Below are positions 45,281-62,388 of a stretch of 64,000 bases of DNA, one piece after another. This DNA comes from Desertivirga arenae. Its GTDB lineage: Bacteria; Bacteroidota; Bacteroidia; Sphingobacteriales; Sphingobacteriaceae. Numbering within the stretch: position 1 is the first letter of the stretch; each line of letters opens with the position of its first letter. Under the pieces are notes generated by a model. That model had not been told where the DNA came from and searched no databases. It saw only the letters and a program-made list of their open reading frames with translations. Made by a program: the position numbers and the translations under genes. Location: assembly GCF_017355785.1 (NCBI RefSeq), contig NZ_JAFEWE010000002.1, positions 422,618-486,617 of the forward strand, given 5' to 3'.

Positions 45281-45313
45281 ACTAATACTTTTTTAGCCAA
45301 ACCCTATATAATT
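45281..45313. promoter_or_regulatory. Copy 1 of the conserved PUL motif (symporter / AraC intergenic)
   Basis: Block beginning ACTAATACTTTTTTAGCCAA, shared with 59589 and 62357. On the minus strand, a -7-like element TACACTTG lies 33 nt downstream of the GTATTA part of the block, before the symporter gene, so the block is placed as an activator site. It could also serve the AraC gene on the other side. Confidence 0.65.
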
Positions 45314-45400
45314 TCCCTCAAAATTTGTTCATAGAAACCATTTAAAATAAATTTATCCTATAAAATATAGTACTTAATTAACCTTTTATAAATCGCCTGC

Positions 45401-46276
45401 ATGAACAAGAGTATCATTAAAGAGATCACACCTCTGACCCCGAACGACTGCTTTACTATTTTTTCGAGGGTGAAGAAGGAGTTCAATTTCCCCCTGCATT
45501 TTCATGATGAGTATGAGCTGAACCTGATCCTGAACGCAAAAGGAGCCAAAAGGATCATCGGAGGACATATTGATGTGATAAGTGATTATGAACTGGTACT
45601 GGTAGGACCTAATATACCGCATGCCTGGTTCACCCATGAATGTACTACTGAAATTACCGAGATCACCATTCAATGGCATAAGGACTTATTTGATGATAAA
45701 TTTTTATCCAGAAACCAGCTGAGTTTTATAAAGAAATTGCTTGAAATGAGTGCAAGAGGAGTAAGTTTTCCGCAGGAGGCTATTCAATTGGTACTGCCAC
45801 GTTTACAGCAATTGAGTCAGCGCAGCGGTTTTGATTCGGTACTCGACCTGATCAGTTTATTACACGACCTTTCTACTTCCCGGAATATTATAGCTCTTTC
45901 TGATACCTCTTTCCTGAATAGTCAGAGTTATAATTATAACAGCAGGCGCCTGGACAAGGCCTTTCAGTATATGAATGAGAACTACCAGAAGGAGATCTCC
46001 CTTATTGATATAGCTAAATTGGTGAATATGACTGAGGAATCCTTCAGCCGGTTTATCAAAAAAAGAACAGGAAATACCTTTATCAGCAGTTTGAACGAAA
46101 TAAGACTGGGACACGCTTCAAGAATGCTGATCGATACTACCCATTCCATCACCGAGATCTGCTACCTCTGCGGGTTCAATAACATTTCTAACTTCAACAG
46201 GCTTTTCAAGAAAAAGAAAGGATGTACACCGAAGGAATTCAGAGAGAACTTTTCCGGTGTACGGGTATTTGTTTAA
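45401..46276 (+). CDS. AraC-family transcriptional regulator
   Basis: Protein of 291 aa. N-terminal cupin-like sugar-sensing domain (FNFPLHFHDEYELNLIL...LVGPNIPHAWF), C-terminal double helix-turn-helix (ISLIDIAKLVNMTEESFSRFIKKRTG; ITEICYLCGFNNISNFNRLFKKKKGCTPKEFR). It is divergent from the symporter-GH130 unit and is the only regulator gene seen in the PUL region, so it is the best candidate to bind the motif shared by three promoters. Confidence 0.93.
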   Translation: MNKSIIKEITPLTPNDCFTIFSRVKKEFNFPLHFHDEYELNLILNAKGAKRIIGGHIDVISDYELVLVGPNIPHAWFTHECTTEITEITIQWHKDLFDDKFLSRNQLSFIKKLLEMSARGVSFPQEAIQLVLPRLQQLSQRSGFDSVLDLISLLHDLSTSRNIIALSDTSFLNSQSYNYNSRRLDKAFQYMNENYQKEISLIDIAKLVNMTEESFSRFIKKRTGNTFISSLNEIRLGHASRMLIDTTHSITEICYLCGFNNISNFNRLFKKKKGCTPKEFRENFSGVRVFV

Positions 46277-46279
46277 CCA

Positions 46280-48976
46280 TTACAATTCAATGGTCAGCCT
46301 ATAATTTCCGGCGGTCAGGTCGGCCTTTTGCATGCCTTCCTTTTCTTTGTTGAAAATGGCTTTATTTTTTGTGGCTTTAGCCTGATCTGCTTTTATGTTT
46401 TTAGCTTTCAGCAATACCGTCGCTCTACTATTGGCAGGAATAGTCAGGTTGTAAATTACATGATTACCGCTTCTTTTCCAGCTGGAGGATATTGTACCAT
46501 AAGGGCCTTTATGATTTGCTTCGAAGGCATTTAAGCCGGCAACAAAATTGGGTTTGATGATGGTGTTCTTGAAACCAGGAGCAGAAGGATCGGGATAGAT
46601 CCCTCCCAGGGCCTTATAATACCAGGCACCGATCTCGCCAAACATGATATGATTTAAGGAAATATCAGAGCTGCCTTCAATCTTCCAGTTTTCGTACAAA
46701 GTTGTAGCTCCGTTTTTAATCCACCATCCCCATGAAGGATAAGTTTCCCGGGAGGCAAGTTTGTAGGCCTGGTCTGCATATCCATTTTCGCTTAATGCAT
46801 TTAGAATAGTTTTAGACCCCAGCAGCCCCACATCCATCGTCCCTGTTGCTTCAACCTTCTGGGCCAGGTTCTTTGCAACCAGAGGCTTTAGCTCGTCCGG
46901 AACTATGCCCCAGAAAAGCGCCGCGCTTAGTTCTGTTTGCATACCACTGGCATATACTCCTGTTTGAGGGTTCAGGAATTTGGCATTGATAGCCTTCCTG
47001 ATCTTTTCTGCCAAAGCTGAGTATTTCTGGTGATCTTCTTGTTTTCCTAAAACCTTCGCCGCCCTGGCTAAAATAGAGGCATCGACATAGTAGTATATGG
47101 AGGAAGTGAGCTCTTTGTTGGATTCTGATTTGATGGGGATCCAGTCGCCCAAACCCCAGTCGGTAAGGCCGGAAGGACTTTTGCTATCAATGTAATTGAC
47201 ATATTTCTTGATGTTCTCGTAGTTCTTCTCCAGGATCTGATCATCGCCATAAAACAGGTAAACGTTCCAGGGAATGATGGCAATCGTACTGGTCCAGTCG
47301 GGCCCGTTTGCCCAGTCGTAGCCCCACATACCGGTAGGAATTATTGCCGGAAGCACACCATTAGGCTGCTGCTCGTCGCGATGGTCGGCCAGCCATTTCT
47401 CATAGATGGTTATGCCATCAAAGTTGTACAGGCCAGTTTCGACAGCAATATGTGCATCCCCTGTCCAGCCATTCTTTTCCCGTTGCGGACAATCTGTGGG
47501 ATAGCCGAAGAGATTCGATAAATAGGAGTTGTTGGTAGCCTGCCAGATCTTATTTAAGAGCTCACTAGATGAGGTGACAGATCCCAGCGGGGGAACATCG
47601 CTATGCATAAAGTAAGCGGTAAGGCGCTCTTTTGTGAGCTCTACAGGTTTGTCACTTACAACTTCTACATACTGGAATCCCTTGTAATTGAACCTGGCTC
47701 TGAAGCTTTCTTCTCCCTTACCCGAAAGAATGAAAATGTCGGTTTGAAAAGGGTCTTTATCATCCGTAGGCCGGTAGTGATAGTCAATATTTGACAGATC
47801 CACATGTCCATCTTTCTTCAAACGCTCTCCATGGATAAGTCTCAACGTTGTTCCCTCTGCTCCCTTAAGTCTGATCTGACTTACCCCGGAAAAATTGCGT
47901 CCCAGGTCGAACACATAATTGGTAGGGCTTAGCTTTCTGATGCTTGCCGCTTTTATTTCCTGAAGATCACGTATAGGACGAAGTTGCTGAGAAACAATAT
48001 TAGTTGAAGGTGCAGAGGTATAGATAACGTTCTTCCATTTAGAATCGTCGAAGCCGGCTTTATTCCAATCCGGGTTCTCCAACCGGGCGTCATAATGCTC
48101 TGCAGTATAGATGCTGTTAAAGATTAAGGGACCGAAAGAAGTTTTCCAGGAATTGTCTGAGGTAATGGTTTCGATGGTACCATCTTCAAAAGTTATCCTA
48201 AGGTCCATACAGAACTTTGGACGGGCACGCCATGGTGCCTGGTCAAAGAACCAAACGGCGGTTGACTGGTGATTATACCATCCATTACCCAAAAGGACTC
48301 CTATTGCGTTTTGGCCGCTTTTCAACAAAGAAGTAACATCATGAGTAAGATATAGGGTGCGACGATCGTAACGGGTATACATGGGGTCAAGCCGATGATT
48401 ACCTACCCTTTGTCCATTGAGGTATAACTCGTAAAGTCCTGCCGCAGCAATGTAAGCTTTGGCCGATTTGATCTTTTTAGGGCTGTTAAAGCTTTTGCGG
48501 AAGTAAGGGGCTTGCTTGATATTGATATCATTGGCATCTGTGATCCATGATCCTTGCCAGTTAGAACTCATTAAGCCTGTTTCGAAAGAAGCAATGCTTT
48601 GATCAGAAGCGCGGTTCTTATCATCCCAAACCTTTACCGCCCAAAAATAACGGGTAAAAGGCTTGAGTGAATCCTTAGGAACCAGAACTTTCATTTTATC
48701 AGATTCGATCGTTCCGGATTCCCAGACATCTCCCCGTCCAGATACTACCGCGTTGGAGTCGGTACCGACGATGACCCGGTAAGATCTCTGAGCGCTAACG
48801 TCGGGGCAACCCGCAAGGTTCCAGGTTAAGCGGGGTGAATTTGCATCAATGCCCAGAGGGTTTTCGAGATGTTCACACTGAAGGTTTCCGGGCTTACATT
48901 GCCCCAGGGTAGGCGTATACGCTACAAGCACAGCTATAACCGCTGTGCCTGTAGCTTTCAATAAAGATCCTTTCAA
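46280..48976 (-). CDS. GH78 alpha-L-rhamnosidase
   Basis: Exported glycosidase of 898 aa, signal peptide ending PTLGQ. Domains in order: N-terminal beta-sandwich (CEHLENPLGIDANSPRLTW; SYRVIVGTD), rhamnosidase N domain (AKAYIAAAGLYELYLNGQRVG), and the (alpha/alpha)6 catalytic domain with GYPTDCPQREKNGWTGDAHI, which carries the family catalytic acid region, then a C-terminal beta domain (MFGEIGAWYYKALGGI...FEANHKGPYGTISSSW). Releases terminal alpha-L-rhamnose. Starts 11 nt after the esterase gene; its 3' end lies 3 nt from the end of the convergent AraC gene. Confidence 0.93.
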   Translation of the reverse strand: MKGSLLKATGTAVIAVLVAYTPTLGQCKPGNLQCEHLENPLGIDANSPRLTWNLAGCPDVSAQRSYRVIVGTDSNAVVSGRGDVWESGTIESDKMKVLVPKDSLKPFTRYFWAVKVWDDKNRASDQSIASFETGLMSSNWQGSWITDANDINIKQAPYFRKSFNSPKKIKSAKAYIAAAGLYELYLNGQRVGNHRLDPMYTRYDRRTLYLTHDVTSLLKSGQNAIGVLLGNGWYNHQSTAVWFFDQAPWRARPKFCMDLRITFEDGTIETITSDNSWKTSFGPLIFNSIYTAEHYDARLENPDWNKAGFDDSKWKNVIYTSAPSTNIVSQQLRPIRDLQEIKAASIRKLSPTNYVFDLGRNFSGVSQIRLKGAEGTTLRLIHGERLKKDGHVDLSNIDYHYRPTDDKDPFQTDIFILSGKGEESFRARFNYKGFQYVEVVSDKPVELTKERLTAYFMHSDVPPLGSVTSSSELLNKIWQATNNSYLSNLFGYPTDCPQREKNGWTGDAHIAVETGLYNFDGITIYEKWLADHRDEQQPNGVLPAIIPTGMWGYDWANGPDWTSTIAIIPWNVYLFYGDDQILEKNYENIKKYVNYIDSKSPSGLTDWGLGDWIPIKSESNKELTSSIYYYVDASILARAAKVLGKQEDHQKYSALAEKIRKAINAKFLNPQTGVYASGMQTELSAALFWGIVPDELKPLVAKNLAQKVEATGTMDVGLLGSKTILNALSENGYADQAYKLASRETYPSWGWWIKNGATTLYENWKIEGSSDISLNHIMFGEIGAWYYKALGGIYPDPSAPGFKNTIIKPNFVAGLNAFEANHKGPYGTISSSWKRSGNHVIYNLTIPANSRATVLLKAKNIKADQAKATKNKAIFNKEKEGMQKADLTAGNYRLTIEL

Positions 48977-48987
48977 TTGTTCCTGAC

Positions 48988-51030
48988 TTATCTAAGTGTA
49001 TACTTTACGTTTTCTGTAATAGGTTTCCAGTTGTCTGTCCGGAATGGAACCGCAGGGAAACCCTCCTTGTTATAAAGGTTTGCATCACCTGCATCATCCG
49101 CCCATGCATACCTTACTGCTACCGGACTTGCCACATTTTCGCTGCTAAGCACTACTGTGTTGCCTTCTACAAAAGCTTTGGCGTAGTGAAATTTCTTATC
49201 GGCACCTGCCACCTCAAAACCTCTCAGATATCCGTATTTATCTTTCGCCATTAAACCAGATCCAGTTTCCTTAAAGCTAAGCATGGCCATATTGCCTGCG
49301 ACCTGCAGTTTGTCAAACACCGGCCCTTGAAAAGCATTTCCTTTCTTATATGATTGGTTTAAAGCAACAGCGGCCAGGCGTTTGCCTACATCCTGCTTGT
49401 TCTTCGGATGAATGTCGTTAGTTTCTCCGATATCAACAGTAACCGCCATGCCTGTATTAGGAAGCCTTAAGGTTTGAGTTTGAGCCTCCCGTAATTCTGC
49501 CCATGAGCTACCATGATTACTGTCGCCACTGGAAGCGATCCAGCTGGATAACTGCACAAAATAGAAGGGGAAATTACCCTGTTTCCAGTTGTTCCGCCAG
49601 TCGTTGATCATCAGAGGAAAAGCGTCCCTGTACTGGACTGCGCGACCTGCGTTGTTTTCGCCCTGGTACCAGATGGCGCCTTTTATTGCATAGGGAATCA
49701 AAGGATTGATCATGCCGTTGTAAAGCAGAGTTGGAAAACTGTTAGGATCGCTCATGCTGCTTGTATTGGATACTGCCAGGAGGGATTCCAATTGAAATTT
49801 CCATTGACCTTCTAAGGGGATCAGTTCTTCATCTACTTTTATATTCACATCGTTGACACTTCCATAAATACCACCGCCGCCACCGGTATCTTCTACCCTT
49901 ACCGATATAACGTTCTTACCTGCTTTTAGCAGTCCCGCTGGTACACTGTATACCCGGTTGGTATTATACCCATTCTTAACAGCACCCACCCTGGTTCCAT
50001 TAACATAAGTTTCGTCAGAATCGTCGATCATAGCGAGGTGAAGTTCGGCCGGCTTTCCTGCATTTTCTGCCTTTAGATTAAAAGAGGTACGCAACCAGGC
50101 GATACCGTCGAGGTTTTCTACGGATTGCTCCCAAAAACCGGGCACCTTCACTTCAGGCCATTTGCTATCATTGTAGTCCGCCTGGCGAAAAACTGCAGCA
50201 GCGGCTGAGTCTTTAGGAAGTGCGCCCTGCAGTTCGATGATCTTTTTGTTCAACTGGTTCTTACGTTCTTTGATCACATATTCGAGGTTGGCAGAGGCCG
50301 GCATGGTTTTCATCATGGCCTTGAAAATATCACTGTTCTGCAAGGCGGGGCGACTAATCCAGGTTTCGATGTCTGTACCTCCCCAGGAAGAGTTGATCAG
50401 ACCGATCGGCACCTGCAGTTCCTTATAAAGCTCCCGGGCAAAAAAATAGCCTACCGCTGTAAAATCTCCGACTGTTTTTGCTGAAGCAGCAACCCATGAA
50501 CCTCCACGTACATCGTCGAGGGGGTCTTTGGCTGTGGTATTAGGAACTTTGAAATGACGAATAAGCGGATTCTTTGCCTCCCGCATCTCTTTTTCTGCAT
50601 CTTTACTGCCTCTTACCGACCATTCCATGTTAGACTGGCCAGAACATAACCAAACCTCTCCTACTAATACATCGTTCAGCGCGATGGCATTCTTTCCTTT
50701 GACATTTAATGTGAATGGCCCGCCTGCCGTTTCCGGAGAAAGTTCAACTTTCCATTTTCCTGCATTATCAGCTTTAACTGTTGCAGACTGGCCCCTAAAT
50801 GTAACTGTAACCTTTTCGCCTTTATCAGCCCAGCCCCAAACTGGTATCTTCTGATTCCTTTGCAGGACCATCCCGTCTCCAAAGATCTTCGGCAAACGGA
50901 CATTGGCATCTGCATAAAGAACGTTTAACAGAAGTGCGGATAAAAGAAGTGCTCCTTTCCTGAATGGCCTGTGGAGGGATGGCCTTTGTTGTTGTTTTAA
51001 GCTGGCCGGATAGATGAATGCTCTGTTCAT
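48988..51030 (-). CDS. Sialate O-acetylesterase-type SGNH carbohydrate esterase
   Basis: Exported protein of 680 aa. The family motif VGEVWLCSGQSNMEWSV gives the nucleophile Ser, and NDIHPKNKQDVGKRLA has the catalytic Asp/His. A GH2-like sugar-binding domain is inserted between (EQSVENLDGIAWLRTSF...AELHLAMIDDSDETYVNG). Such CE enzymes remove acetyl groups from many glycans, not only sialic acid. The signal-like segment (LLLSALLLNVLYADA) starts near residue 28, so the true start could be later than the one given. It forms an operon with GH78. Confidence 0.88.
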   Translation of the reverse strand: MNRAFIYPASLKQQQRPSLHRPFRKGALLLSALLLNVLYADANVRLPKIFGDGMVLQRNQKIPVWGWADKGEKVTVTFRGQSATVKADNAGKWKVELSPETAGGPFTLNVKGKNAIALNDVLVGEVWLCSGQSNMEWSVRGSKDAEKEMREAKNPLIRHFKVPNTTAKDPLDDVRGGSWVAASAKTVGDFTAVGYFFARELYKELQVPIGLINSSWGGTDIETWISRPALQNSDIFKAMMKTMPASANLEYVIKERKNQLNKKIIELQGALPKDSAAAAVFRQADYNDSKWPEVKVPGFWEQSVENLDGIAWLRTSFNLKAENAGKPAELHLAMIDDSDETYVNGTRVGAVKNGYNTNRVYSVPAGLLKAGKNVISVRVEDTGGGGGIYGSVNDVNIKVDEELIPLEGQWKFQLESLLAVSNTSSMSDPNSFPTLLYNGMINPLIPYAIKGAIWYQGENNAGRAVQYRDAFPLMINDWRNNWKQGNFPFYFVQLSSWIASSGDSNHGSSWAELREAQTQTLRLPNTGMAVTVDIGETNDIHPKNKQDVGKRLAAVALNQSYKKGNAFQGPVFDKLQVAGNMAMLSFKETGSGLMAKDKYGYLRGFEVAGADKKFHYAKAFVEGNTVVLSSENVASPVAVRYAWADDAGDANLYNKEGFPAVPFRTDNWKPITENVKYTLR

Positions 51031-51126
51031 ACTATAAGTTCTTTTTTTGTAGGTGTGTTTTTTGGTAGTTTATAACCTGGTAATTGTTTTACAATATACG
51101 TGATGATTTAATAATTATAATAATAC

Positions 51127-51157
51127 AAAAAGGGAGCTACTGGCTCGAAGTAGCTTA
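51127..51157 (-). terminator. Terminator of the susC-to-GH5 operon
   Basis: On the minus strand, a hairpin with GCTACT / AGTAGC and flanking AAGGGA / TCCCTT stems ends in CCCTTTTTG. It lies ~40 nt after the GH5 stop codon and separates this operon from the esterase-GH78 unit. Confidence 0.72.
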
Positions 51158-51196
51158 TCCCTTTTGGTTTTACCGGTAGATATGATAGAAATCTTA

Positions 51197-52294
51197 TTAT
51201 TTACAGTTTATAGGATTTGTAAAGAGATATTTCATAAGTGTACTCATTTGCGGTCTATCCTGACCATTAGCGGGTTGCACTGCAAGTGGATAGTTACCCC
51301 ATCTAGGGCCCGCCGACCAATAAGTTCCATTTACGCAATTGTCGCTTAAGTATTTTAACATGCGATCAAGCACAACGTTCCAACGTGGGTCGTTATCAGG
51401 AACACCGTACTCCCCAACAAATCCCCGAAGTTTGTTGGTTTTAAGCCAGTCCACAAAAGGAGTTACGCGTTCTACACCGATATTTTCGGTAGCAGCTTCA
51501 GTATCATAAGAGCCTTTATAACTGCCCCCGGCATCCTTGTCAAAATAGGTATGGGCCTGGAAGATCAGATTATTCCCCGGATCAATTAAATCCTTAAGGT
51601 TATCACTAACCTGCTTCCATTTGGATGCTGAACTAAAGGCATCGCCGCTTACGACAATAGTAGTCTTCTGATCAATCGTTCTTATCTTATTAATTGTTTT
51701 TTGAGCAATATTGAACCATGTTGCCTTGGTTAGTGCATAGGGTTCATTCATCATATCATATCCCCAAATATTGTTATAGCCTTTGAATTCATTAGCAAGT
51801 CTGTACCACACGTCTCCCAGCGCTTCTACCGGCAAGCTGGCATCGCCAATTTCAACAAAAACGGTATCAGAATTATTACTAGTCATTTTCCGGCGGCAGA
51901 AATTATGCATATCAAGCAGGATGAGCATTTGTTTTGATTGTGCAGCCTCTACAAATGTTTTCATCCGCGACAGCTCCTCTGAATTAAGGGGACCAAAGGT
52001 TGTAGGCTGAATCCGTTCCCAACGAAAGGGGAAGCGAATAAGCTTGAATCCTTTAGCCTTGAAATAGTCAAGATCAGCAGCCGTTGGATATCCGTAATGC
52101 GTGCCCAGAGTACCGGGTATAGTGCCAAATTCTGCTCCTGAAAGATTAACGCCGAAGGGCTGGGAGGGCTTAGAATAAGTGTTTGCAGGAGGCGGATCAA
52201 CAGGTTCTGTTTTTTCTTCAACAGGTGCACCTTTTTTTCCACATGACAATAGTATTCCAATAGCTATTATTAATAGCCATAATTCCTTTCTCAT
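51197..52294 (-). CDS. GH5-family endoglycanase lipoprotein (cellulase-like)
   Basis: Protein of 365 aa with a lipoprotein signal (GILLSCGKK), so probably on the surface. GH5 TIM barrel: FGVNLSGAEFGTIPG, KLIRFPFRWERIQP, acid/base Glu in GYDMMNEPYA, HTYFDKD, and nucleophile Glu in FVGEYGVPDNDPRW, then GTYWSAGPRWG...LAVQPANGQDRPQM. Closest in pattern to the GH5 endo-beta-1,4-glucanases of the Ralstonia Egl type, but beta-mannan activity is possible. Last gene of the susC operon, with a paralogue at 61240. Confidence 0.88.
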   Translation of the reverse strand: MRKELWLLIIAIGILLSCGKKGAPVEEKTEPVDPPPANTYSKPSQPFGVNLSGAEFGTIPGTLGTHYGYPTAADLDYFKAKGFKLIRFPFRWERIQPTTFGPLNSEELSRMKTFVEAAQSKQMLILLDMHNFCRRKMTSNNSDTVFVEIGDASLPVEALGDVWYRLANEFKGYNNIWGYDMMNEPYALTKATWFNIAQKTINKIRTIDQKTTIVVSGDAFSSASKWKQVSDNLKDLIDPGNNLIFQAHTYFDKDAGGSYKGSYDTEAATENIGVERVTPFVDWLKTNKLRGFVGEYGVPDNDPRWNVVLDRMLKYLSDNCVNGTYWSAGPRWGNYPLAVQPANGQDRPQMSTLMKYLFTNPINCK

Positions 52295-52309
52295 AAATAC
52301 TTGGGTTAA

Positions 52310-52340
52310 GGGACTAGCAGCACTACTAGTCCCGTTTTTT
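52310..52340 (-). repeat. Intercistronic hairpin between the SGNH esterase and GH5
   Basis: Perfect 8-bp inverted repeat GGGACTAG / CTAGTCCC with an 8-nt loop. The T tract (GTTTTTT) is on the plus strand only, so in the operon's own RNA it is a hairpin rather than a terminator. Confidence 0.65.
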
Positions 52341-52347
52341 ACTAATT

Positions 52348-53031
52348 CTACTTCTTTAAATGAGGTTTAAGTACTTCTGCCCAAATTGCATAACCTTTTT
52401 CATTCAGATGAACGCCATCTTCTACATAAATTCCGGGAATTGGATTTCCAGCTGGATCCATTGTGGCTGAAAAAATATCGGCATAGTCCAATTTCTTCTG
52501 CTCTGAAATAAACTTTTTTATAAGATCATTTGCTTGCCGAACTATTGGAATTGAAGCAGCTCTTCCTGGGCATCCCTTGATAGAAAGATACGTTATTTGC
52601 ACTTTCGGTTCATCTTTCCGGATCAGGTTTATCAAGGATTTAACACGCTCTAAAACCAGCTCAGCTGTTGCTCCAGCTGCAATATCATTATCCCCGGCAT
52701 AGATCACGATCTGCTTAAGCTTCTTTGGATATTTTACCACCTCAAAGTATTGCTTTACATCAAGCAATTGCGAGCCACCAAAACCTCTGTTCACTATCAT
52801 GTATCCCGGAAACATTTGCTGAACGTTATGCCAGTTAGTGAAAGAGGAACTACCGACCATTAAAATTGACCGTTTAGGCAGCGGATTAATACTATCCTGT
52901 TTTTTAAAATCCTGAATGGTATTCCAGTAATAAGATTTGTTTTCCTGTGCTTGCGCCGGCAACGTAAAGCTGGAAAGCCAAATCAAAAAAGTGATAGCGA
53001 GAGATAAGCTAAACTTCAGTCCTGAATTCAT
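52348..53031 (-). CDS. SGNH/GDSL-type esterase
   Basis: Exported protein of 227 aa, signal peptide ending PAQAQ. The four SGNH blocks are present: Ser in LMVGSSSFTNW, Gly in NRGFGGS, Asn in YAGDNDIAAG, and Asp/His in EDGVHLNEKGY. Likely removes acetyl or other acyl groups from the target glycan outside the inner membrane. Fourth gene of the susC operon, with 47 and 53 nt gaps that both carry hairpins. Confidence 0.87.
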   Translation of the reverse strand: MNSGLKFSLSLAITFLIWLSSFTLPAQAQENKSYYWNTIQDFKKQDSINPLPKRSILMVGSSSFTNWHNVQQMFPGYMIVNRGFGGSQLLDVKQYFEVVKYPKKLKQIVIYAGDNDIAAGATAELVLERVKSLINLIRKDEPKVQITYLSIKGCPGRAASIPIVRQANDLIKKFISEQKKLDYADIFSATMDPAGNPIPGIYVEDGVHLNEKGYAIWAEVLKPHLKK

Positions 53032-53048
53032 ACTTTAATTTTACCAGG

Positions 53049-53065
53049 GGGGCATAGCCCCCCTA
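53049..53065 (-). repeat. Intercistronic GC hairpin between the glycan-binding protein and the esterase
   Basis: A 7-bp all-GC stem GGGGGGC / GCCCCCC with a 3-nt loop. No T tract. It may protect the upstream susCD-SGBP part of the message from 3' decay. Confidence 0.6.
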
Positions 53066-53078
53066 TAGACTTTCGCAG

Positions 53079-54224: not shown

Positions 54225-54250
54225 ACAACCTCTAATTAATCGTAAATTGA

Positions 54251-55936
54251 TTACCAACCTGGGTTATTATTTTCAATACTTGAATTTCCATTCATCTCGT
54301 CGTCGGGGATTGGGAACAGTAAATGTTTTGGTTCCCTTGTTTTTATAATTCCGTTGATGTCTAGGCCACCTATGGCATTCATTACCTGCAGGTAGATCCC
54401 CCAGCGTCTCAAATCCCATGGACGGTTCCCTTCTACAGCAAGTTCACGACGTCGCTCCTCGAGCACCTGAGAACGGAAGGCCACCTTATCATTATTGAAG
54501 TCAGCTAAAGAAACAAGGCTTGCCCGGCTTCTGCCCCTTACCTGATTCATTGCATCGATAGCCAGCTGAGTAGGACCGTTCACCTCATTTTCCGCCTCCG
54601 CAAAGATCAGCAGGGTTTCTGCGTACCTTAACCATGGGTAAGCAGCATCGTTACGGAAAATAGATTTATCGGAAACATCTGCAAATTTGGTGGTTAGTGC
54701 CAGGTGAGAATCGTCATCAGCGTAATTATAGCCACTTACCCAACCTTTGGTAGGATCTCCATACTCTTTTTTAGGATACCATTGAAGATTACCGTTCGAA
54801 TCTTTCCATTTATGGTCTACACCCTCACGGATCCTGGCATCATTCGATTCAAAAAGATCATACCATACATCTGACAGACCGTACTGGCCGCCGCCTCCTG
54901 CTACTCTTCTTTCGGGGTCGGCAGCTGAACGAACACCATAATAAGCATAGCTTAAAAAGTTTCCGAACTCTTCGGAATTTGCCTGCGCGTACATGGTCCA
55001 TAAATGTTCTCTCTTACCCCTGTTTTCTCTCTTCCATACATCTGCCCAGGTTGGGAATAATGCTACTCCGGATGCTGATGAATTATCCATCACTTCTTTT
55101 GCCTTATTGCGGGCAAGGGTGAAGTATTCGGTAGCATCGAAGTTTTCGTGTCCGGCCACTACATTTTTGTTAATGCTTAGCAGTGTTGGCTCTTTCCTGT
55201 TATTGCGTGCCCCCTGCGGTCCGCCGTAGACTTTTACAACACCGGATTTTAATGCACCTGATGCCATGGTGAGGTATACCTTAGCCAGCATCGTTTTTGC
55301 TGCTTCCATGCTTAGGTTTCCTTCCTTGTATTTTGCATTGGTACGACTGTAGAGCTGGGTTTCGGATTCCTTTAGCCGGTCTACAATATACCCGTATACT
55401 TCGGCAACAGAAGCTCTGGGAGGATTCGGATCTGCGCCCTCTGTTACAGAAACGGGGTACAATGGCACTCCCCCAAAAGCTTTAACTAAGGTAAAGTAAG
55501 CCCAAGCCCTGTAGAAGTTAAGCTCGCCTAAGGCGTTATTCTTCGAGCCTTCATCAATGGCGGTCATCTTATTTACCACACTGTAGGCAAAGTTGGCCCT
55601 GGCTACAAGAAGGTATAAGTTGTTCCAGTACGCATTTATATCCCCATTGCCTGAAAAGTTACCTGCTCCTGTGGTTGTGAATGCCCATGTTGGACCGGTA
55701 GCATCATCAGAATCGATGTCGTGTACTCGGTTGAAAATGGCGTATGCGAAAAAGGCACCGGAATTGAAGGTCGCTTTAACTCCATCAACCATCATTTGTG
55801 CCGCTTCCGGCGAATCCCCCATATTTTCGGGAGCAAGGAAAGAATAAGGTTTCTCCTCCAATGCGTCTTTACAGCTATCAAATGATAGTAAAGTACTTAA
55901 TGCTATAATTGGGATTAATATTTTCGTTCTTTTCAT
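54251..55936 (-). CDS. SusD/RagB-family surface lipoprotein
   Basis: Protein of 561 aa with a lipobox (LLSFDSCKD). TPR-like helices (ALGELNFYRAWAYFTLVKAFGGVPLY; MEAAKTMLAKVYLTMA) and the closing family motif LEERRRELAVEGNRPWDLRRWG...HLLFPIPDDEMNGN are clear. The glycan-binding lid for the SusC barrel encoded 11 nt upstream. Confidence 0.95.
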   Translation of the reverse strand: MKRTKILIPIIALSTLLSFDSCKDALEEKPYSFLAPENMGDSPEAAQMMVDGVKATFNSGAFFAYAIFNRVHDIDSDDATGPTWAFTTTGAGNFSGNGDINAYWNNLYLLVARANFAYSVVNKMTAIDEGSKNNALGELNFYRAWAYFTLVKAFGGVPLYPVSVTEGADPNPPRASVAEVYGYIVDRLKESETQLYSRTNAKYKEGNLSMEAAKTMLAKVYLTMASGALKSGVVKVYGGPQGARNNRKEPTLLSINKNVVAGHENFDATEYFTLARNKAKEVMDNSSASGVALFPTWADVWKRENRGKREHLWTMYAQANSEEFGNFLSYAYYGVRSAADPERRVAGGGGQYGLSDVWYDLFESNDARIREGVDHKWKDSNGNLQWYPKKEYGDPTKGWVSGYNYADDDSHLALTTKFADVSDKSIFRNDAAYPWLRYAETLLIFAEAENEVNGPTQLAIDAMNQVRGRSRASLVSLADFNNDKVAFRSQVLEERRRELAVEGNRPWDLRRWGIYLQVMNAIGGLDINGIIKTREPKHLLFPIPDDEMNGNSSIENNNPGW

Positions 55937-55947
55937 TGTAGTATCGT

Positions 55948-58900
55948 TTATAAGGCAGCTTTAACACCCAAAGTAAAAGTTCTTGTATTTGGATAGGAGT
56001 TCATATCGACACCGCGACGTGAAACATCTGCTCCGAAAGAGTTAACATCGGGATCGTACCAGCTATAATTAGTGATGGTAAACACATTGCTTAGAGTACC
56101 ATAGACATTTATACCTTCAATTAGCTTGGTGCGAGGTTTGAAAGTATATCCCAAACTGATCGTTTTCAGGCGAACAAAGGATCCGTCTTCGACATAACGG
56201 TTAGAGAAATACCAGCTTGTATTATAAGAAGCATCAGCCGCAGGCCATGTTGCTGTTGCTTTTGTTGCTTCAGTCCATCTTCCATCAAAAGCTTCTTTTG
56301 TTCCATTTCCATTCTGGTTAAGGCGAACATTCCAAAGGTTGGTATTAACCAGGTCGCCACCGATAGAACCATGAACGAAAACAGTAAAATCAAATCGTTT
56401 GTAATTGAAGCTATTGGTTAATCCGAACATGTAATCGGGCAGGGTATTTCCAATGATTGTACGGTCTTTATCCTTGTTAAAAATTCCGTCTCCGTCAACG
56501 TCTTTGTATTTGATAGTTCCTATTCTCTGTTTCAGCTCGTTATCACTTAGTCCAGCCCAGGTTGGATCAGCCCTTACTTCGGCTTCATTATCGTAGAAAC
56601 CGTCTTCCAGCACCCCGTAAACAGACCCGAGGGCATAACCGTTACGTTGAACGAAAGCATTATCTACGTTATGGTAAAGTCTTTGCGAAAACTGGTCGCC
56701 AGGCAAATTAGAAACCTCGTTACGGTTGATGGAGAAATTACCATTAACATTCCATTTGAAGTTACGGGCCTGTACCAGTCCGCCATACACTGAGAACTCT
56801 AATCCTTTATTGGTGATGGTTCCTAAGTTTGTAACTGTTGTCTGGAAGCCGGTACTTGGCGCAACCTTGATCGACTGCAACAAATCGCTTGAACGTTTGT
56901 GATAGCCTTCAACAGTTACAGTAATACGGTTTTTCATGAAACCCATATCCAGACCTATATCAGCAGCCCTGGTAGTTTCCCATCTCAGATCAGGATCAAC
57001 AATACCACGGTTATTATCGATCACAAATCCGGAACTTAGGTCGCCATTTAAGTTTACCGGTGCTTTTTGACCCCTCAACTGGTATGCGAAGGCATAAGGA
57101 CCAATACCCTGATTTCCTGTAGTTCCTAAACTGGCTCTCAGTTTCAGGTTAGAGAAGAGGTTGAGGCTTTTTATGAACCTTTCTTCACCAGCTAACCATC
57201 CCACCGCTACTGATCCGAAGTTGGCGAACTGGTTTTCGGTAGAGAACTTGCTGGAACCGTCTCTTCTGAAGTTACCAGTTATGGTATATTTTCCCTTATA
57301 GCTGTATTGGGCCCGGGCAAGAACAGACATTAAAGTAGTTCCCTCACGGTAATTGAACAAGGGCTGAGGAGATAAACCAGCGTTAAGATTATTAGCTCCC
57401 ATAATATCATTTGGGAAGTTAGTGGCCTGCTGGGAATTCCAGTAGCTTTTCCCTTTCTCATAGGTAAAGGCTGTTACTGCGTCTACCCTGTGATCTCTGT
57501 TAAAAGTTTTGTTGAAATTTAACAGGGATTCTAGTGTTAATTGTCTGTAGTTGTCCTCAGACTCGATTCCCCGGCCTTTTGCCTGGTATCCTTCAGGGAT
57601 AGTTCTTTTATAATAAATTGAACGGTTGTTGATGTTGTAGTTATACCCCACTCTCTGGCGGAAGCTCATAAAGGGCAGGAAGTTAAGCTGCGCGTATCCG
57701 GTTGTATAGACGCGGGCAGAGGCAGTCCTGTCATCAGAGTCGTTTATTGAGGTTACGGGGTTACTTAGCATAGAAGCTGAAGCTGTTCGTTCCTGACGGA
57801 TAGCGGCATAAGGATCGTCAAATGGCCACGCAGGAGAATACATCAAGGTGTTGCGGATGATACTCGATTGCTCCTGGGACGTATTTGTTTTTCCAAGGAC
57901 ATAGTTGGTATAGGTAATGTTAGTATTGGTACCTATCTGGAATAAGTTGCTTACGTTGCGGTGAAGGTTCAATTGAACTCCGTAACGCTTGAAACCTGTT
58001 TTCAGGATAATACCCTGCTGATCCAGGTAATTACCGGAAATTGAATAGTTACCCTTATCATTTCCACCGGATGCCTGGAGTGTAAAGTCCTGAGAATAGG
58101 AAGTTCTGAAAATGCGGTCCTGCCAGTTTTCCCCGGTAAAGCCAACAGGATATACAGAACCTTCAGGCATACCATCTCTGAAATCCTCAGGAGTTGGGCG
58201 GTAAACGTTATCCATTCCAGTGCCAGGGTCCTTTCCAATTGTTCCGGAGTAGGGTACACTTAGCGGAGCACCGTAGTACTTAGCATAGTTGGCAGTTGCC
58301 TCATTTTGTAACAAGGCAAATTCGTAGGCATTCATTAGTTCTATCTTTTTGGTAACATTACCAAATGAGGAGTTTGAAATAAAGTTAACCCTATCCCGTC
58401 CAGACTTACCTTTCTTAGTAGTGATAAGCACAACTCCGTTTGAACCCCTTGAACCATAAATAGCAGTAGCTGAAGCGTCTTTTAAAATCTCGATACTTTC
58501 TACATCCTGGGGATTTAGAAAAGACAGACCATTAACAGTTTGAAAATTATCTTCTCCCCCTCTTGGCGTTGATGCTGACACTACCGGGATATCATCAACT
58601 ACATACAAGGGCTCGCTTCCATTTACCGAATTAGCACCACGAATAACGATGTTAATTCCGGCTCCGGGAGCACCGTCACTTTTGCCAACCTGTACACCTG
58701 ATACCATACCCTGCAAGCCTTCATTAATACTTACCGGAAGGTTTTTCACAATATCGGTACCTTTTACGGTGCTTACTGAGCCTGTAATATCTCTCTGCCG
58801 CGCTGTTCCATAGCCAATATTCACAACAACATCTTCTAAGCGGGTTGACGATTCCCTCATTTGAACATTAAGCGTTTTAGCAGTTCCTACTGGCCGTTCA

Positions 58901-59253
58901 ATGGTATTGAACCCTAAAAAGGAAAATACGAGCACATCAGAAGGACTGTTTATTTTTACTTTATAGTTGCCCTTTGTATCACTGCTGGTTCCGGTAGTTG
59001 AACCCTTCAACTTGATGGTTACTCCTGGCAAAGGTCCTCCCTGCGAATCAGTGACCCTTCCGCTTACCACATCATTCGCTGTTTGAGAGAATCCCTGAAC
59101 TGTAACTAGAAGAGATAGGATAAGGACTAAGTATGCCCTAAAGATCTTTATAGGGGATGTGTGAAGAATACATGTTGTTCCTCCCTCCTTAATTTTAATT
59201 CTCTGCTTGCTAAAGCAGAGGCTGTTTTCAAATAGGTCTCCTGGACGTTTCAT
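55948..59253 (-). CDS. SusC-family TonB-linked outer-membrane transporter of the PUL
   Basis: About 1101 aa from the ATG at 59253; an ATG 84 nt upstream is in frame but adds no sensible leader. The signal peptide is RAYLVLILSLLVTVQGFSQ. CarboxypepD_reg domain (VVSGRVTDSQGGPLPGVTIKLKG), plug (VIRGANSVNGSEPLYVVDDIPV; DVESIEILKDASATAIYGSRGSNGVVLITTKKG), then the barrel ending TLGVKAAL. No STN domain, so it is not coupled to a sigma/anti-sigma pair, unlike the SusC at 9243. First gene of the operon susC-susD-SGBP-SGNH-GH5. Confidence 0.94.
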   Translation of the reverse strand: MKRPGDLFENSLCFSKQRIKIKEGGTTCILHTSPIKIFRAYLVLILSLLVTVQGFSQTANDVVSGRVTDSQGGPLPGVTIKLKGSTTGTSSDTKGNYKVKINSPSDVLVFSFLGFNTIERPVGTAKTLNVQMRESSTRLEDVVVNIGYGTARQRDITGSVSTVKGTDIVKNLPVSINEGLQGMVSGVQVGKSDGAPGAGINIVIRGANSVNGSEPLYVVDDIPVVSASTPRGGEDNFQTVNGLSFLNPQDVESIEILKDASATAIYGSRGSNGVVLITTKKGKSGRDRVNFISNSSFGNVTKKIELMNAYEFALLQNEATANYAKYYGAPLSVPYSGTIGKDPGTGMDNVYRPTPEDFRDGMPEGSVYPVGFTGENWQDRIFRTSYSQDFTLQASGGNDKGNYSISGNYLDQQGIILKTGFKRYGVQLNLHRNVSNLFQIGTNTNITYTNYVLGKTNTSQEQSSIIRNTLMYSPAWPFDDPYAAIRQERTASASMLSNPVTSINDSDDRTASARVYTTGYAQLNFLPFMSFRQRVGYNYNINNRSIYYKRTIPEGYQAKGRGIESEDNYRQLTLESLLNFNKTFNRDHRVDAVTAFTYEKGKSYWNSQQATNFPNDIMGANNLNAGLSPQPLFNYREGTTLMSVLARAQYSYKGKYTITGNFRRDGSSKFSTENQFANFGSVAVGWLAGEERFIKSLNLFSNLKLRASLGTTGNQGIGPYAFAYQLRGQKAPVNLNGDLSSGFVIDNNRGIVDPDLRWETTRAADIGLDMGFMKNRITVTVEGYHKRSSDLLQSIKVAPSTGFQTTVTNLGTITNKGLEFSVYGGLVQARNFKWNVNGNFSINRNEVSNLPGDQFSQRLYHNVDNAFVQRNGYALGSVYGVLEDGFYDNEAEVRADPTWAGLSDNELKQRIGTIKYKDVDGDGIFNKDKDRTIIGNTLPDYMFGLTNSFNYKRFDFTVFVHGSIGGDLVNTNLWNVRLNQNGNGTKEAFDGRWTEATKATATWPAADASYNTSWYFSNRYVEDGSFVRLKTISLGYTFKPRTKLIEGINVYGTLSNVFTITNYSWYDPDVNSFGADVSRRGVDMNSYPNTRTFTLGVKAAL

Positions 59254-59588
59254 ATGTCTGTAATGGTTATTTTTAGTTTCTGGTAGCTGGTGTTTCGGCT
59301 TGGAATGCATTAATCTTAATGCAGGTTCAAACACCATTTAATTTTACGAAGAATTTTAATCATTGACTTGACTACTGGCTAGCTTAATGCAAGTGACCAC
59401 TAACCCGGACTAGCTGTGATACTGTATGGGATGGGTCGGAGAAAGGGAATTAATACTAATTTGTCGAAATCTTTCATATCTTATTGGTTAGCTTAAATCT
59501 GTAGGTATTGCTTCGTTTACTGCGTCATTTCGGGACAGATCTTGTACCTGATTGACATTGATAAAATTCCCTTTTTAACGCTTGCTTT

Positions 59589-59621
59589 ACTAATACTTTT
59601 TTAGCTAAAGCTTATATAATA
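59589..59621. promoter_or_regulatory. Copy 2 of the conserved PUL motif (upstream of susC)
   Basis: Block beginning ACTAATACTTTTTTAGCTAA, differing from copy 1 at only a few of ~33 positions. On the minus strand a weak -7-like element (TATCAATG) again lies 33 nt from the GTATTA part, the same distance as in copy 1. Confidence 0.65.
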
Positions 59622-59744
59622 ATGCCGGATAGAATATAAAAATTGGTGGTTTGAAAAGATGAGCCGGGATTGGAGAGACCATTTTGCTTGGTGTAAAACC
59701 CAGAAAGCAGAACTGTAAGAGAGACACTTATATAGTAAAAGCAT

Positions 59745-59773
59745 AAAAAAAGCCTTCAGAGAAGGCTTTTTTT
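59745..59773. terminator. Bidirectional-looking terminator after dctA
   Basis: A perfect hairpin of GCCTTC / GAAGGC with a 3-nt loop, flanked by seven A and seven T, so it can end transcripts from either side. It lies ~100 nt after the dctA stop and isolates the susC promoter. Confidence 0.85.
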
Positions 59774-59870
59774 AACCGTGTAAATCCTATTTATATTTTT
59801 ATAAAACTGGTTCTGATAACTAAAAATAGTTACAATACCTATGATAGATTTTTATCTTTCAACTAGTATT

Positions 59871-61205
59871 TCATTTAGTTTTTGAAACTGGTTCGGAGAT
59901 GACCAATGCAGGGAATGACTCAGGCGAGGGATCTTCTGTTTCCTCGACTGGTTCTGCAAGTGGTCCGGCCTGGACAGCCTGTTGATAGCGGCCTTCATCA
60001 AATTCTCCCTCGCTTTTAGCTACTACAATTGTTGCAATGCCATTCCCTATTAAATTGGTGAGAGCACGTGCTTCTGACATGAAGCGATCTACTCCCAATA
60101 ATATCGCGACATTCTCTACCGGCATGATTTTCATCGCTGCAAGCGTGGAGCTTAGCACAATAAAGCCACTCCCGGTCACTCCGGCAGCGCCCTTAGACGT
60201 AACCATAAGAATACCTATTGCCGTTAGTTGCTGCCCGAGACTTAGTTCAATATTGAATACCTGTGCCAGGAAAATAAAGGCCATAGAGAGATAAATGGAA
60301 GTGCCATCGAGGTTGAAGGAATAACCTGTAGGGATGACTAAGCCAACTACCGATTTTGAACAGCCAAACTTCTCCATACGCTGCATCATGCTGGGTAATA
60401 CTGACTCGGATGATGAAGTGCCGAATACAATAAGCAGTTCGCGACGAATGTATTTCAGATAACTTAAAAGACTGATCTTGTAATACTTGCAAACGGCATT
60501 CAGCACACCAAAAATAAAAAGGAAGCAGGTAAGATAGATTGAACCCATAATTTTAGCCATGGGTATAAGTGTTTGCAATCCGTAGGTTCCAACAGTATAG
60601 GCCATCCCTCCGAATGCACCAAGAGGAGCCAGCTTCATTACCATTTTCATGACGTTAAATAATGCATGCGATATTTTATCGAAGGTATTTAACAGCGAAT
60701 GGCCTGATGCTCCCATCCTGCTTATCCCTATCGCGAAAAGTATAGCGAAAAACAGGATCTGAAGGATATCTCCTTTTGAAAAGGCCTCGAATATATTCTG
60801 AGGAACGATATGGGTAAGAAATTCTGCCCAGTTGATCTCATTGGCTGGTATTGATCCTGCTTTCTCCGCTACCTCCTGAGATATTAAAGGCTTCACGCCC
60901 TTGCCTGGCTGCAGGATGTTTGCTACCAGCAACCCGATGATGATAGCGACGGTGGTGATCACCTCGAAATACAAAAGAGCCTTACCCCCAACCCGGCCCA
61001 CCTTTTTCATATCGCCCATGCGGGCAATGCCCAGCACTATGGTAAGAAAAACGATGGGTGCAATGAGCATATTGATCAGTTTAATAAATGTTCCGCTGAT
61101 CAGTTTTGCGGTATTAGCGAATTCTGGTAAAAGAACACCAGCAATGACTCCCAGGATTATTGCAATAATTACCTGAAAGGTTAAGTTTCCGAATAACCTT
61201 TTCAT
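59871..61205 (-). CDS. dctA: Dicarboxylate/cation symporter (DctA family)
   Basis: Inner-membrane carrier of 444 aa, DAACS family. Signatures: GTSSSESVLPSMMQRM (Ser-rich hairpin), PTGYSFNLDGTSIYLSMAFIFLAQ, and LGVDRFMSEARALTNLIGNG, all typical of C4-dicarboxylate carriers of the DctA group. It begins 34 nt after the GH5 gene and is probably co-transcribed with it. Why a dicarboxylate carrier should be in a glycan locus is not clear; organic-acid esters or fermentation products are possible reasons. Confidence 0.9.
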   Translation of the reverse strand: MKRLFGNLTFQVIIAIILGVIAGVLLPEFANTAKLISGTFIKLINMLIAPIVFLTIVLGIARMGDMKKVGRVGGKALLYFEVITTVAIIIGLLVANILQPGKGVKPLISQEVAEKAGSIPANEINWAEFLTHIVPQNIFEAFSKGDILQILFFAILFAIGISRMGASGHSLLNTFDKISHALFNVMKMVMKLAPLGAFGGMAYTVGTYGLQTLIPMAKIMGSIYLTCFLFIFGVLNAVCKYYKISLLSYLKYIRRELLIVFGTSSSESVLPSMMQRMEKFGCSKSVVGLVIPTGYSFNLDGTSIYLSMAFIFLAQVFNIELSLGQQLTAIGILMVTSKGAAGVTGSGFIVLSSTLAAMKIMPVENVAILLGVDRFMSEARALTNLIGNGIATIVVAKSEGEFDEGRYQQAVQAGPLAEPVEETEDPSPESFPALVISEPVSKTK

Positions 61206-61239
61206 TAATTTAGTTCGTAATTGGTAGGCGGTAAAGCTA

Positions 61240-62256
61240 CTACTTTGCCTGCAAGTATTTGCCTAATATTTGCATTTGCGGACGGTCTGAACCGTTACGG
61301 GGCTGAACTGCCAGATGATAATCGCCCCACCAGGGTCCCGCAGCCCAGTAGGTACCATTAACGCCGTTTTGCTGTAAATAGTTTAAGAGCTTATCTAATG
61401 TGACCAACCACTTCGGATCATTATCCGGAACTCCGTATTCTCCTATAAACCCTCTCAGTTTATTCGCTTTTAACCATTCTACAAATGGCATGGCCCTTAC
61501 GATGCCGGTTTCTGCTGTTGCCAGCTCTTTGCTGTAGGGAAATTTATAAGCTCCGGACGAGTTTTCGTCGAAGTAAATGTGTGCTTCGTATATTAGATTG
61601 TTAGAAGGATCGACGAGGTTCTTCAGATTACCACTGTAAGAAGGCCAGCGTTCAGCGGAGCTCCAGCTATCGCCACCGACAACAATAGTCGTTTTAGGAT
61701 CAACAGATCTGACTTTGGAAATAATAGCCTGAGCTATAGTAAACCAGGAGTCGGCAGCTGGCATGTCATGCGGTTCATTCATCAAACCATAACCCCAGAT
61801 GTTTTTCTTATCCTTTAGTTCGACAGCTATTTTGGCCCAGGCATCAGCTACAGCTTCAACCGGAACTTCAGGAGTACCGATCAGTTTCCAATCATTGCCT
61901 ACCTTACGGCGGCAATAGTTGTGCATATCGGGCAGCACCATCATTCCTCTTTTGGCTGCAGCATCAACTACTGCCATGAAGCGCCCGAGCTCCTGTTTGT
62001 CTAAGTCGGCCCCCATAACCGGTTGCAGTCTCTCCCATAAAAAAGGGACTCTGATCAAATTCAGTCCTTTCTTTTTAAAGTAATCCAGATCCGCCTCGCC
62101 CGGATAAGTGTAATCTTTATTAAAGACACCTGGAATATTAGAACCAAAGTCGCCACCGGCAAGGTTAACTCCAAAGGGTTTGGATGCTGAATTTACCTGC
62201 GCCTTGCTAATGGCAACAGATAGTAAGATCAATAGCGAACAAGTTATTTTTTTCAT
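61240..62256 (-). CDS. GH5-family endoglycanase, secreted paralogue
   Basis: Protein of 338 aa, signal peptide ending ISKAQ with no lipobox, so it is periplasmic or secreted, unlike its lipoprotein paralogue at 51197. Same GH5 motifs: FGVNLAGGDFGSNIPG, LIRVPFLWERLQP, acid/base Glu in GYGLMNEPHD, HIYFDEN, nucleophile Glu in FIGEYGVPDNDPKW, GTYWAAGPWWGDYHLAVQP. The pair may split work between the surface and the periplasm. The shared PUL motif is ~100 nt upstream, and dctA follows in the same direction. Confidence 0.9.
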   Translation of the reverse strand: MKKITCSLLILLSVAISKAQVNSASKPFGVNLAGGDFGSNIPGVFNKDYTYPGEADLDYFKKKGLNLIRVPFLWERLQPVMGADLDKQELGRFMAVVDAAAKRGMMVLPDMHNYCRRKVGNDWKLIGTPEVPVEAVADAWAKIAVELKDKKNIWGYGLMNEPHDMPAADSWFTIAQAIISKVRSVDPKTTIVVGGDSWSSAERWPSYSGNLKNLVDPSNNLIYEAHIYFDENSSGAYKFPYSKELATAETGIVRAMPFVEWLKANKLRGFIGEYGVPDNDPKWLVTLDKLLNYLQQNGVNGTYWAAGPWWGDYHLAVQPRNGSDRPQMQILGKYLQAK

Positions 62257-62356
62257 CCTTGAATGTGTGTAAGTAATTAAAAGGTATGCGGATCTTTACC
62301 AGCTTGAAGATCCGGATGATTAGTTATTCAAAAGTAAAAGCTGCAGCGCGCTTTAT

Positions 62357-62388
62357 ATAATACTTTTTTACCCGAAACTTATTTATAA
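62357..62388. promoter_or_regulatory. Copy 3 of the conserved PUL motif (GH5 / GH140 intergenic)
   Basis: Block beginning ATAATACTTTTTTACCCGAA, matching copies 1 and 2 in the core TAATACTTTTTTA and the following AAxC-TAT. On the minus strand a good -7 element, TACTTTTG, lies 27 nt from the GTATTA part. It stands between divergent genes and could control both. Confidence 0.65.

Follow-up and report, generated by a model that had tools for sequence, protein, structure and literature searches.

Several gene units of a glycan locus in Desertivirga arenae appear to share one promoter motif, which raises the question of what this motif is and which protein would act on it. The window analysed here is the whole stretch of 64,000 nucleotides from contig NZ_JAFEWE010000002.1 (positions 422,618 to 486,617, forward strand), for which the original prediction had joined three units (symporter-GH130, susC operon and GH5-dctA; GH, glycoside hydrolase) into one regulon, with the AraC-family protein encoded beside the first of them as the candidate regulator. 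Comparison with related genomes supports both proposals, and we put the probability at roughly 0.8 that the motif is the operator of this neighbouring one-component AraC-family regulator, which would control a beta-mannan (mannosylglucose phosphorylase) regulon through the layout of a class II AraC-type activator. A phased second operator is the new element relative to the earlier observation, and the spacing of the paired operators suggests a DNA loop.

Operator core and promoter geometry in D. arenae

The 13-mer TAATACTTTTTTA is found on the + strand of the window at 45283-45295, 59591-59603 and 62358-62370, within 1-2 nt of the three blocks predicted at 45281, 59589 and 62357 and, as predicted, in a single orientation. 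Across the D. arenae genome (6.19 Mb), we found five exact copies, three inside the window and two outside it, all within 31 kb of contig C23 and in one orientation, together with two one-mismatch copies (CAATACTTTTTTA) in the same 31-kb stretch and orientation, which brings the number of promoters from three to seven. By simple arithmetic, the chance that four other random copies would fall within 31 kb of the first in a genome of this size is of the order of 1e-8. Read on the minus strand, the seven sites follow GNTAAAAAAGTATT[AG], with the 15-mer core written GNTAAAAWAGTATTA, and each is located 5' of a minus-strand gene, namely those for the sodium:solute symporter (SSS), SusC and a GH5 enzyme in the window, and for a pyrroloquinoline quinone (PQQ) dehydrogenase, a TIM-barrel isomerase, a further GH5 enzyme and ThuA outside it.

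The same sites were recovered by R1, a 50-position sequence profile built from 55 sites of 80 relatives' loci, none of them from D. arenae. The top six R1 matches over the D. arenae genome are six of the seven sites (20.6-24.8 bits, E 2e-4 to 4e-3), and the seventh-ranked match lies elsewhere (14.6 bits; 150 of 6489 first-look candidates scored). Rather than being dispersed near many unrelated genes, the six best matches genome-wide are thus all in this locus. The copies in the window and the regulator gene beside copy 1 are as follows (MGP, 4-O-beta-D-mannosyl-D-glucose phosphorylase).

45283-45297, − strand: copy 1, core GCTAAAAAAGTATTA, symporter-MGP promoter; 22.3 bits with the 15-mer matrix, tied fifth genome-wide with R1
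59591-59605, − strand: copy 2, core GCTAAAAAAGTATTA, susC promoter; exact 13-mer, among the R1 top six
62358-62372, − strand: copy 3, core GGTAAAAAAGTATTA, GH5-dctA promoter; R1 top match genome-wide, 24.8 bits
45401-46276, + strand: araC, 291-aa one-component AraC-family regulator; predicted cupin plus two-helix-turn-helix (HTH) domain

Looser searches gave no excess. Allowing up to one mismatch to the 13-mer, the whole genome held 60 matches (exact copies included) against 64 for the reversed pattern, and the window alone, at up to two mismatches, held 8 against a shuffle mean of 5.06, which is unremarkable. Since one-mismatch matches are no commoner than in the reversed control, the signal consists of the exact core with its clustering and position. 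Three further candidates were rejected: GATAAAATAGCATTA (window 39981-39995, − strand, 18.8 bits), which a naive scan would count, corresponds to the first codons of a short-chain dehydrogenase (KDKIALVTG) and is considered a coding coincidence; GGTAAAAAAGTATTG, inside a GH26 open reading frame (ORF) of locus L125, was set aside for the same reason; and CAATACTTTTTTA at 19149 (− strand) lies inside an ORF. No Rfam family matched the window at the gathering score, so a known RNA element is unsupported there.

The core stands at a nearly fixed distance from a promoter element. A TAnnTTTG box (at least 5 of 6 letters) occurred 21 or 22 nt past the core in 47 of the 57 sites of other species, compared with 9 at any other offset from 5 to 44. 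In D. arenae, exactly 21 nt past the core, copies 3 and 4 carry TAnnTTTG and copies 1, 2 and 5 carry GAnnTTTA, which matches 4 of the 6 letters; copies 6 and 7 are weaker. The boxes in the window are listed here.

45254-45261, − strand: -7-like box GACCTTTA, 21 nt past copy 1
59562-59569, − strand: -7-like box GAATTTTA, 21 nt past copy 2
62329-62336, − strand: -7 box TACTTTTG, 21 nt past copy 3

The original prediction had measured 33 nt to a -7-like element in copies 1 and 2, for which it had taken other boxes, and 27 nt in copy 3; with a candidate at 21 nt in all three copies, this difference vanishes. The place over which the core lies is that of the usual -33 element. TAnnTTTG is the sigma-A -7 consensus of Flavobacterium psychrophilum, at -12 to -5 (PMC9723704), by which the core would end at about -34. 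A strong half-site that covers the -33 region and keeps a constant spacing to the -7 box, a feature of class II activator sites, is present.

A partner half-site is visible as an average. When 133 non-redundant promoter sites are taken together, the sequence 21 bp upstream of the core resembles a degenerate, co-oriented copy of it (A+T-corrected z 5.1; 32 offsets scanned, next highest z 2.5, lowest -3.9). The "similar half" that had been predicted to follow the block thus holds as an average, and it does not hold up in the individual D. arenae copies, where scores are poor. A 21-bp periodicity of direct repeats is reported for AraC-family rhamnose regulators of Bacillales, Bacteroides and Enterococcus (PMC3870299), and the sites of hybrid two-component systems (HTCSs) also average 21 bp (PMC3878776).

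45304-45318, − strand: position of the degenerate distal half-site AGGGAAATTATATAG, 21 bp upstream of copy 1; -14.8 bits here

Paired operators in related loci

The 80 loci used for comparison are the best 80 of 542 matching relatives in a scan of named genomes, and they include Mucilaginibacter, Pedobacter, Sphingobacterium, Desertivirga, Solitalea, Ferruginibacter, Puia, Chitinophaga, Hymenobacter, Rufibacter and others. In these loci the 15-mer GNTAAAAWAGTATTA without mismatch gave 57 sites, 55 of which are outside ORFs and 5' of a co-directional ORF, compared with 0-2 sites, none of them upstream, when the pattern was reversed (one control) or shuffled (eight controls). When one mismatch was tolerated, 99 of 110 sites were upstream (controls, 0-14 sites with 0-2 upstream). 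A divergent site of at least 12 bits lies within 320 nt of araC in 61 loci, and in the 15 loci where araC and the symporter gene are co-directional, a site stands between them in every case; the core thus stays with the symporter promoter when the genes are rearranged. The rest comprise L148 (11.1 bits), L167 (11.9 bits), L168 (23.4 bits, farther off) and L162 (none; the contig ends just past araC). Another 30 loci also lack a divergent site; in 20 of these, a site scoring 12 bits or higher was present at some other place in the fetched 3.8 kb, and in 12 of the 20 it is co-directional and within 134 nt past araC, including loci whose proteins share 44-59% identity. In Desertivirga xinjiangensis (L096 9649-9663, + strand), we also observed a mismatch-free core that faces the other way, at a distance of about 235 bp from the promoter site and near the start of the symporter gene.

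Many divergent regions contain a second copy of the core in the same orientation. In a first set, D. arenae included, a same-orientation second copy exceeded the 95% shuffle level in 47 of 63 regions (opposite orientation, 5 of 63), with distances clustering near 75, 86, 98, 109, 120 and 130 bp; Solitalea, for example, has a strong pair at 76 bp. The second set was derived from 132 identifiers, of which we excluded 5, removed 47 as near-duplicates and set aside 30 that lack a divergent site. In the remaining 50 regions, which still hold related species with equal distances and one D. arenae row (L034), a second copy was present in 39 in the same orientation and in none in the opposite one. Its distances were phased at 10.9 bp (R 0.620, 0 of 20000 jittered nulls; 25 distinct distances, R 0.50, 64 of 20000), a period taken from a first-set test to which rows L098 and L115 had been added by judgement and which the joint test below supersedes. 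Other periods gave R 0.326 at 10.5 (465 of 20000) and R 0.555 at 11.0 (1 of 20000).

A joint programmed test reduced 207 regions to 136 non-redundant ones, 84 of which have a divergent promoter site. Here a same-orientation second site of at least 8 bits occurred in 54 of 84 regions, compared with 1 of 84 for the opposite orientation. The phasing was again clear at 10.9 bp (R 0.714, 0 of 20000 jittered nulls) and persisted among the 34 distinct distances, by which alone independent spacing changes are approximated (R 0.636, 0 of 20000). It was stable for cut-offs of 7-14 bits, and the controls remained lower, with a maximum R of 0.573 (mean 0.191) over 200 column-permuted matrices and 0.118 for the opposite orientation. 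When the period was itself fitted to these distances (10.85 bp), 53 of the 54 fell within a quarter turn of a whole number. For comparison, helical repeats of 11.1-11.6 bp in vivo have been fitted for lac loops (PMC1762422). The pairs of D. arenae in the window are the following.

45368-45382, − strand: candidate second operator on the araC side, oriented like copy 1 and 85 bp from it; 8.4 bits, borderline
59451-59465, − strand: weaker same-orientation site GACAAATTAGTATTA in the susC leader, 12.3 bits; 140 bp from copy 2, or 12.9 turns of 10.85 bp, picked post hoc

Whole-turn spacing of paired operators suggests DNA looping. The strongest competing account, which we regard as unlikely although it deserves serious weight, accepts the operators as real and takes the second copies for same-face binding or araC autoregulation, for example by a roadblock, with no loop. 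In 28 listed regions the second copy does begin 16-61 nt away from the start of araC, in 8 of them about 20 nt past a candidate araC -7 box, and in 7 of the 15 co-directional loci (L150, L155, L156, L158, L161, L163 and L173) a weaker site (13.6-18.9 bits) occurs up to 450 nt before araC, an arrangement that may fit autoregulation. Yet the place of the second copy relative to the araC -7 box is inconstant, and its phase relative to the distant site persists over 45-294 bp, including the seven distances that exceed 200 bp (R about 0.9); the conserved feature is thus how the two operators are phased. A roadblock by itself would not require phasing with another promoter, and phased pairs were also found at four susC promoters (86, 98, 107 and 130 bp in L166, L142, L108 and L141). 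We propose a loop as the purpose of the pairs, and consider it fairly probable that, Bacteroidota-wide, a one-component AraC protein runs the MGP mannan regulon via phase-locked operator pairs whose spacing, about 4-27 turns, changed often and almost only by whole turns of about 10.9 bp.

The AraC protein as candidate regulator

The D. arenae AraC protein has a C-terminal double HTH (HTH_18, E 2.4e-23, plus HTH_AraC), and its AlphaFold model (mean pLDDT 82.7) consists of an eight-strand barrel, a helical linker and two HTH units. In Foldseek, the best matches were full-length AraC-family proteins (TM about 0.5), with a weaker match to the arabinose domain of E. coli AraC (2arc, E 3.2e-4). The N-terminus is thus predicted to have a cupin fold of the sugar-binding type, a statement that concerns the fold only. 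Homologs were detected in 52 of 100 relatives (E 1e-30), 158 of 399 family genomes (E 1e-100), 17 of 395 genomes of the class (E 1e-85) and 21 of 395 of the phylum (E 1e-80).

We further compared R1 matches between family genomes with and without a close AraC ortholog (54 hand-chosen genomes; stricter filters, 111 candidates scored in each). Matches of at least 20 bits, a line set after the list had been viewed, occurred in 22 of the 27 genomes that encode the ortholog and in 2 of the 27 that lack it (Fisher test, P = 4e-8), some of the former being of the same species as R1 training loci (e.g., G001 and L096, both Desertivirga xinjiangensis). Together with the 61 divergent and 15 co-directional sites described above, this co-occurrence favours the adjacent AraC protein, as had been proposed. 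One family genome without a close ortholog (G021:C70:12150-12191, L317) has a 23.7-bit operator, where the regulator is perhaps lost or unassembled.

The core could instead be the site of another regulator encoded elsewhere, such as an HTCS or a SusR-type protein, with araC linked to it by gene neighbourhood only. Bacova_02097, for example, is an HTCS. A B. ovatus beta-mannan polysaccharide utilization locus is under this mannan-oligosaccharide-binding regulator (PMC5094572), and the mannan locus of Muricauda, which is mannan-induced in proteomics, has an expressed AraC-type regulator (FG28_RS02325), a symporter and GH130 as well as an HTCS (PMC9860051). The sites in genomes without a close ortholog, at either threshold, would also be explained. 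We nevertheless judge this account improbable: the loci were picked by araC, yet strong sites track the ortholog genome-wide; at several loci that lack a divergent site, sites accompany AraC proteins of only 44-59% identity; direct repetition at 21 bp is an AraC-type layout; and no other regulator was found among the scanned proteins of the D. arenae locus. The weakest alternative, that the core is a basal element of strong promoters (a variant -33 or UP-like A-tract), agrees with its A+T richness and fixed distance from the -7 box and is very improbable, given that such an element would spread over the genome while the exact core and all six best R1 matches are confined to one locus, that second copies recur at phased distances in one orientation, and that strong sites track the ortholog.

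Several observations weigh against the AraC operator and its phased pairs. At the E 0.05 limit, R1 matches were present in 26 of 27 genomes with the ortholog and in 9 of 27 without it, and the 20-bit line, as stated, followed inspection of the list. Bare 13-mer counts in 45 relatives failed to separate genomes with and without the ortholog (at least one match in 43 of 45, controls similar), in contrast to the 50-position profile, which did. Copy 6 is weak with R1 (12.4 bits) and was not among the matches listed in the genome-wide scan, and 10 of the 30 ortholog or paralog loci without a divergent site, that of the 44% D. arenae paralog included, had no site that reaches 12 bits anywhere within the fetched 3.8 kb. 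Taken one by one, the D. arenae copies have distal halves at 21 bp with poor scores, and because other offsets deviate downward by as much as 3.9, the z of 5.1 is less striking. The second operator of D. arenae (8.4 bits) exceeds the 95% shuffle level of the first set (6.9) and falls below that of the second (9.0). A pair at the susC promoter of L107 (213 bp) is out of phase, as are the Mucilaginibacter loci L150, L155, L156 and L158, where a second same-orientation core lies 40 bp upstream of the symporter promoter site (about 3.7 turns); eight pairs labelled as not at araC are a selection that omits these five loci and includes the 140-bp pair of D. arenae, and the pair of L161 among them in fact lies about 430 nt before araC.

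The sequences themselves show the motif, its place at promoters, the membership of the regulon, the co-occurrence with the AraC ortholog and the helical phasing. We infer how the AraC protein would work, including its binding, its ligand, the sign of regulation, the operon limits and the loop. The strong core ends 21-22 nt upstream of the TAnnTTTG-like -7 box, roughly where the -33 element lies, and on average has a degenerate partner as a direct repeat 21 bp farther upstream. An imported mannosyl-disaccharide would bind the cupin domain, and the liganded protein would activate from the tandem half-sites, over the -33 element. Without ligand, the protein may bridge the promoter site and the second operator, which is oriented alike and lies on the same face of the DNA; the resulting loop would limit expression of the targets and of araC.

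Regulon content and comparison with known systems

The three units of the window comprise the following genes.

43353-45179, − strand: SSS symporter, first gene past copy 1
42077-43309, − strand: GH130 MGP; matches 3was (B. fragilis enzyme), E 9e-178
41253-41900, − strand: 3-keto-disaccharide hydrolase-like protein; symporter-MGP operon, by inference
40103-41302, − strand: FGE-sulfatase-domain protein; symporter-MGP operon, by inference
46280-59337, − strand: susC operon, by inference (SusC, SusD, SGBP-like, SGNH esterase, GH5, SASA esterase, GH78)
59871-62256, − strand: GH5 (61240-62256) and DctA-type dicarboxylate symporter (59871-61205)

A GH140 apiosidase-family gene (window 62454-63845, + strand) is divergent from GH5-dctA, with copy 3 between them, and may also be affected by this copy. 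Outside the window, the operator-bearing units are PQQ dehydrogenase-isomerase, isomerase-oxidoreductase-transporter, GH5 and ThuA. Behind the operator at L031 2900-5041, 6607-9524 and 10911-12488 (contig C23), we observed a PQQ dehydrogenase with a cytochrome c domain, a levoglucosan-dehydrogenase-like Gfo/Idh protein, an isomerase, PhyH and ThuA. Through the common operator, an oxidative sugar route thus appears to be tied to the mannan regulon in D. arenae.

Of the 80 loci, 73 encode MGP (4 of the 7 without it are on short contigs), 63 an epimerase of the GlcNAc (N-acetylglucosamine) 2-epimerase family, 61 the same SSS and 49 GH26. The recurrence of these four suggests that the core function is most likely the use of beta-mannan disaccharides, which narrows the substrate of the predicted regulon to the MGP pathway. 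GH26 and the 2-epimerase were not found among the scanned MGP neighbours in D. arenae, where GH5s, esterases and oxidative enzymes are present instead.

In the literature surveyed, regulation of Bacteroidota polysaccharide loci is mainly described for membrane HTCSs and for SusR of gut Bacteroides. By titles and abstract starts, no paper among the open-access matches listed dealt with this motif, with a one-component AraC mannan regulon in the group, or with such a phased pair or loop in Bacteroidota, except for the direct repeats of SusR (PMC3878776); subscription papers and RegPrecise were outside the scope. Here, the mannan pathway occurs in Pedobacter, Mucilaginibacter, Sphingobacterium, Chitinophaga, Ferruginibacter, Hymenobacter and others, and its proposed soluble regulator, the operator and the promoter geometry are all readable from sequence, so that the regulon would be predictable in many strains without expression data, and the unusual oxidative genes for PQQ dehydrogenase, Gfo/Idh and ThuA would be tied to mannan use in D. 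arenae. The whole-turn spacing across dozens of species provides comparative evidence for looping that is independent of any single model organism. If the reading is true, phase-locked pairs would be a trace, left by natural selection, of in vivo DNA looping, and would also report the in vivo helical repeat.

The MGP pathway of Bacteroides fragilis was reportedly described by Senoura et al. in 2011. B. fragilis has GH26, epimerase and MGP (PMC13276840). The D. arenae locus resembles it in having MGP, and most relatives share the epimerase and GH26 as well; it differs in that neither of the latter accompanies MGP among the scanned D. arenae neighbours and that PQQ dehydrogenase, Gfo/Idh and ThuA genes carry the operator.

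Among regulators, Bacteroides RhaR is likewise a one-component AraC regulator of Bacteroidota with a local regulon, with a different motif and sugar and, in the excerpt available, no description of a remote phased operator (PMC3870299). HTCS_Man (PMC3878776) and Bacova_02097 (PMC5094572) share the control of mannan loci in Bacteroidota. HTCS_Man loci, however, serve alpha-mannan, and an HTCS has a periplasmic sensor, kinase and receiver (PMC3878776), a domain set absent from the 291-aa D. arenae protein, in which only AraC HTH domains were found. Similar to the pairs described here, the direct-repeat sites of SusR come in twos that are separated by six or seven turns and face one side of the DNA; SusR belongs to another protein family and its spacing is 67 or 77 bp (PMC3878776). 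Our paired operators depart from that SusR-type spacing in that their distances vary in whole turns over 45-294 bp.

The closest parallel in arrangement is E. coli AraC at araBAD, with I1-I2 and the O2 loop, half-sites about 21 bp apart beside the core promoter, and a remote second operator in helical phase; Lee and Schleif 1989 is among the references of PMC1762422. Both systems combine an AraC-family protein with a cupin, here predicted (the model resembles 2arc), and a remote phased operator, and the direct-repeat half-sites spaced about 21 bp have a counterpart here on average, with poor scores in the single D. arenae copies. Unlike E. coli AraC, the protein described here belongs to another phylum and would act at TAnnTTTG -7 promoters, with a far operator placed about 4-27 turns away depending on the species and a polysaccharide regulon of seven promoters.

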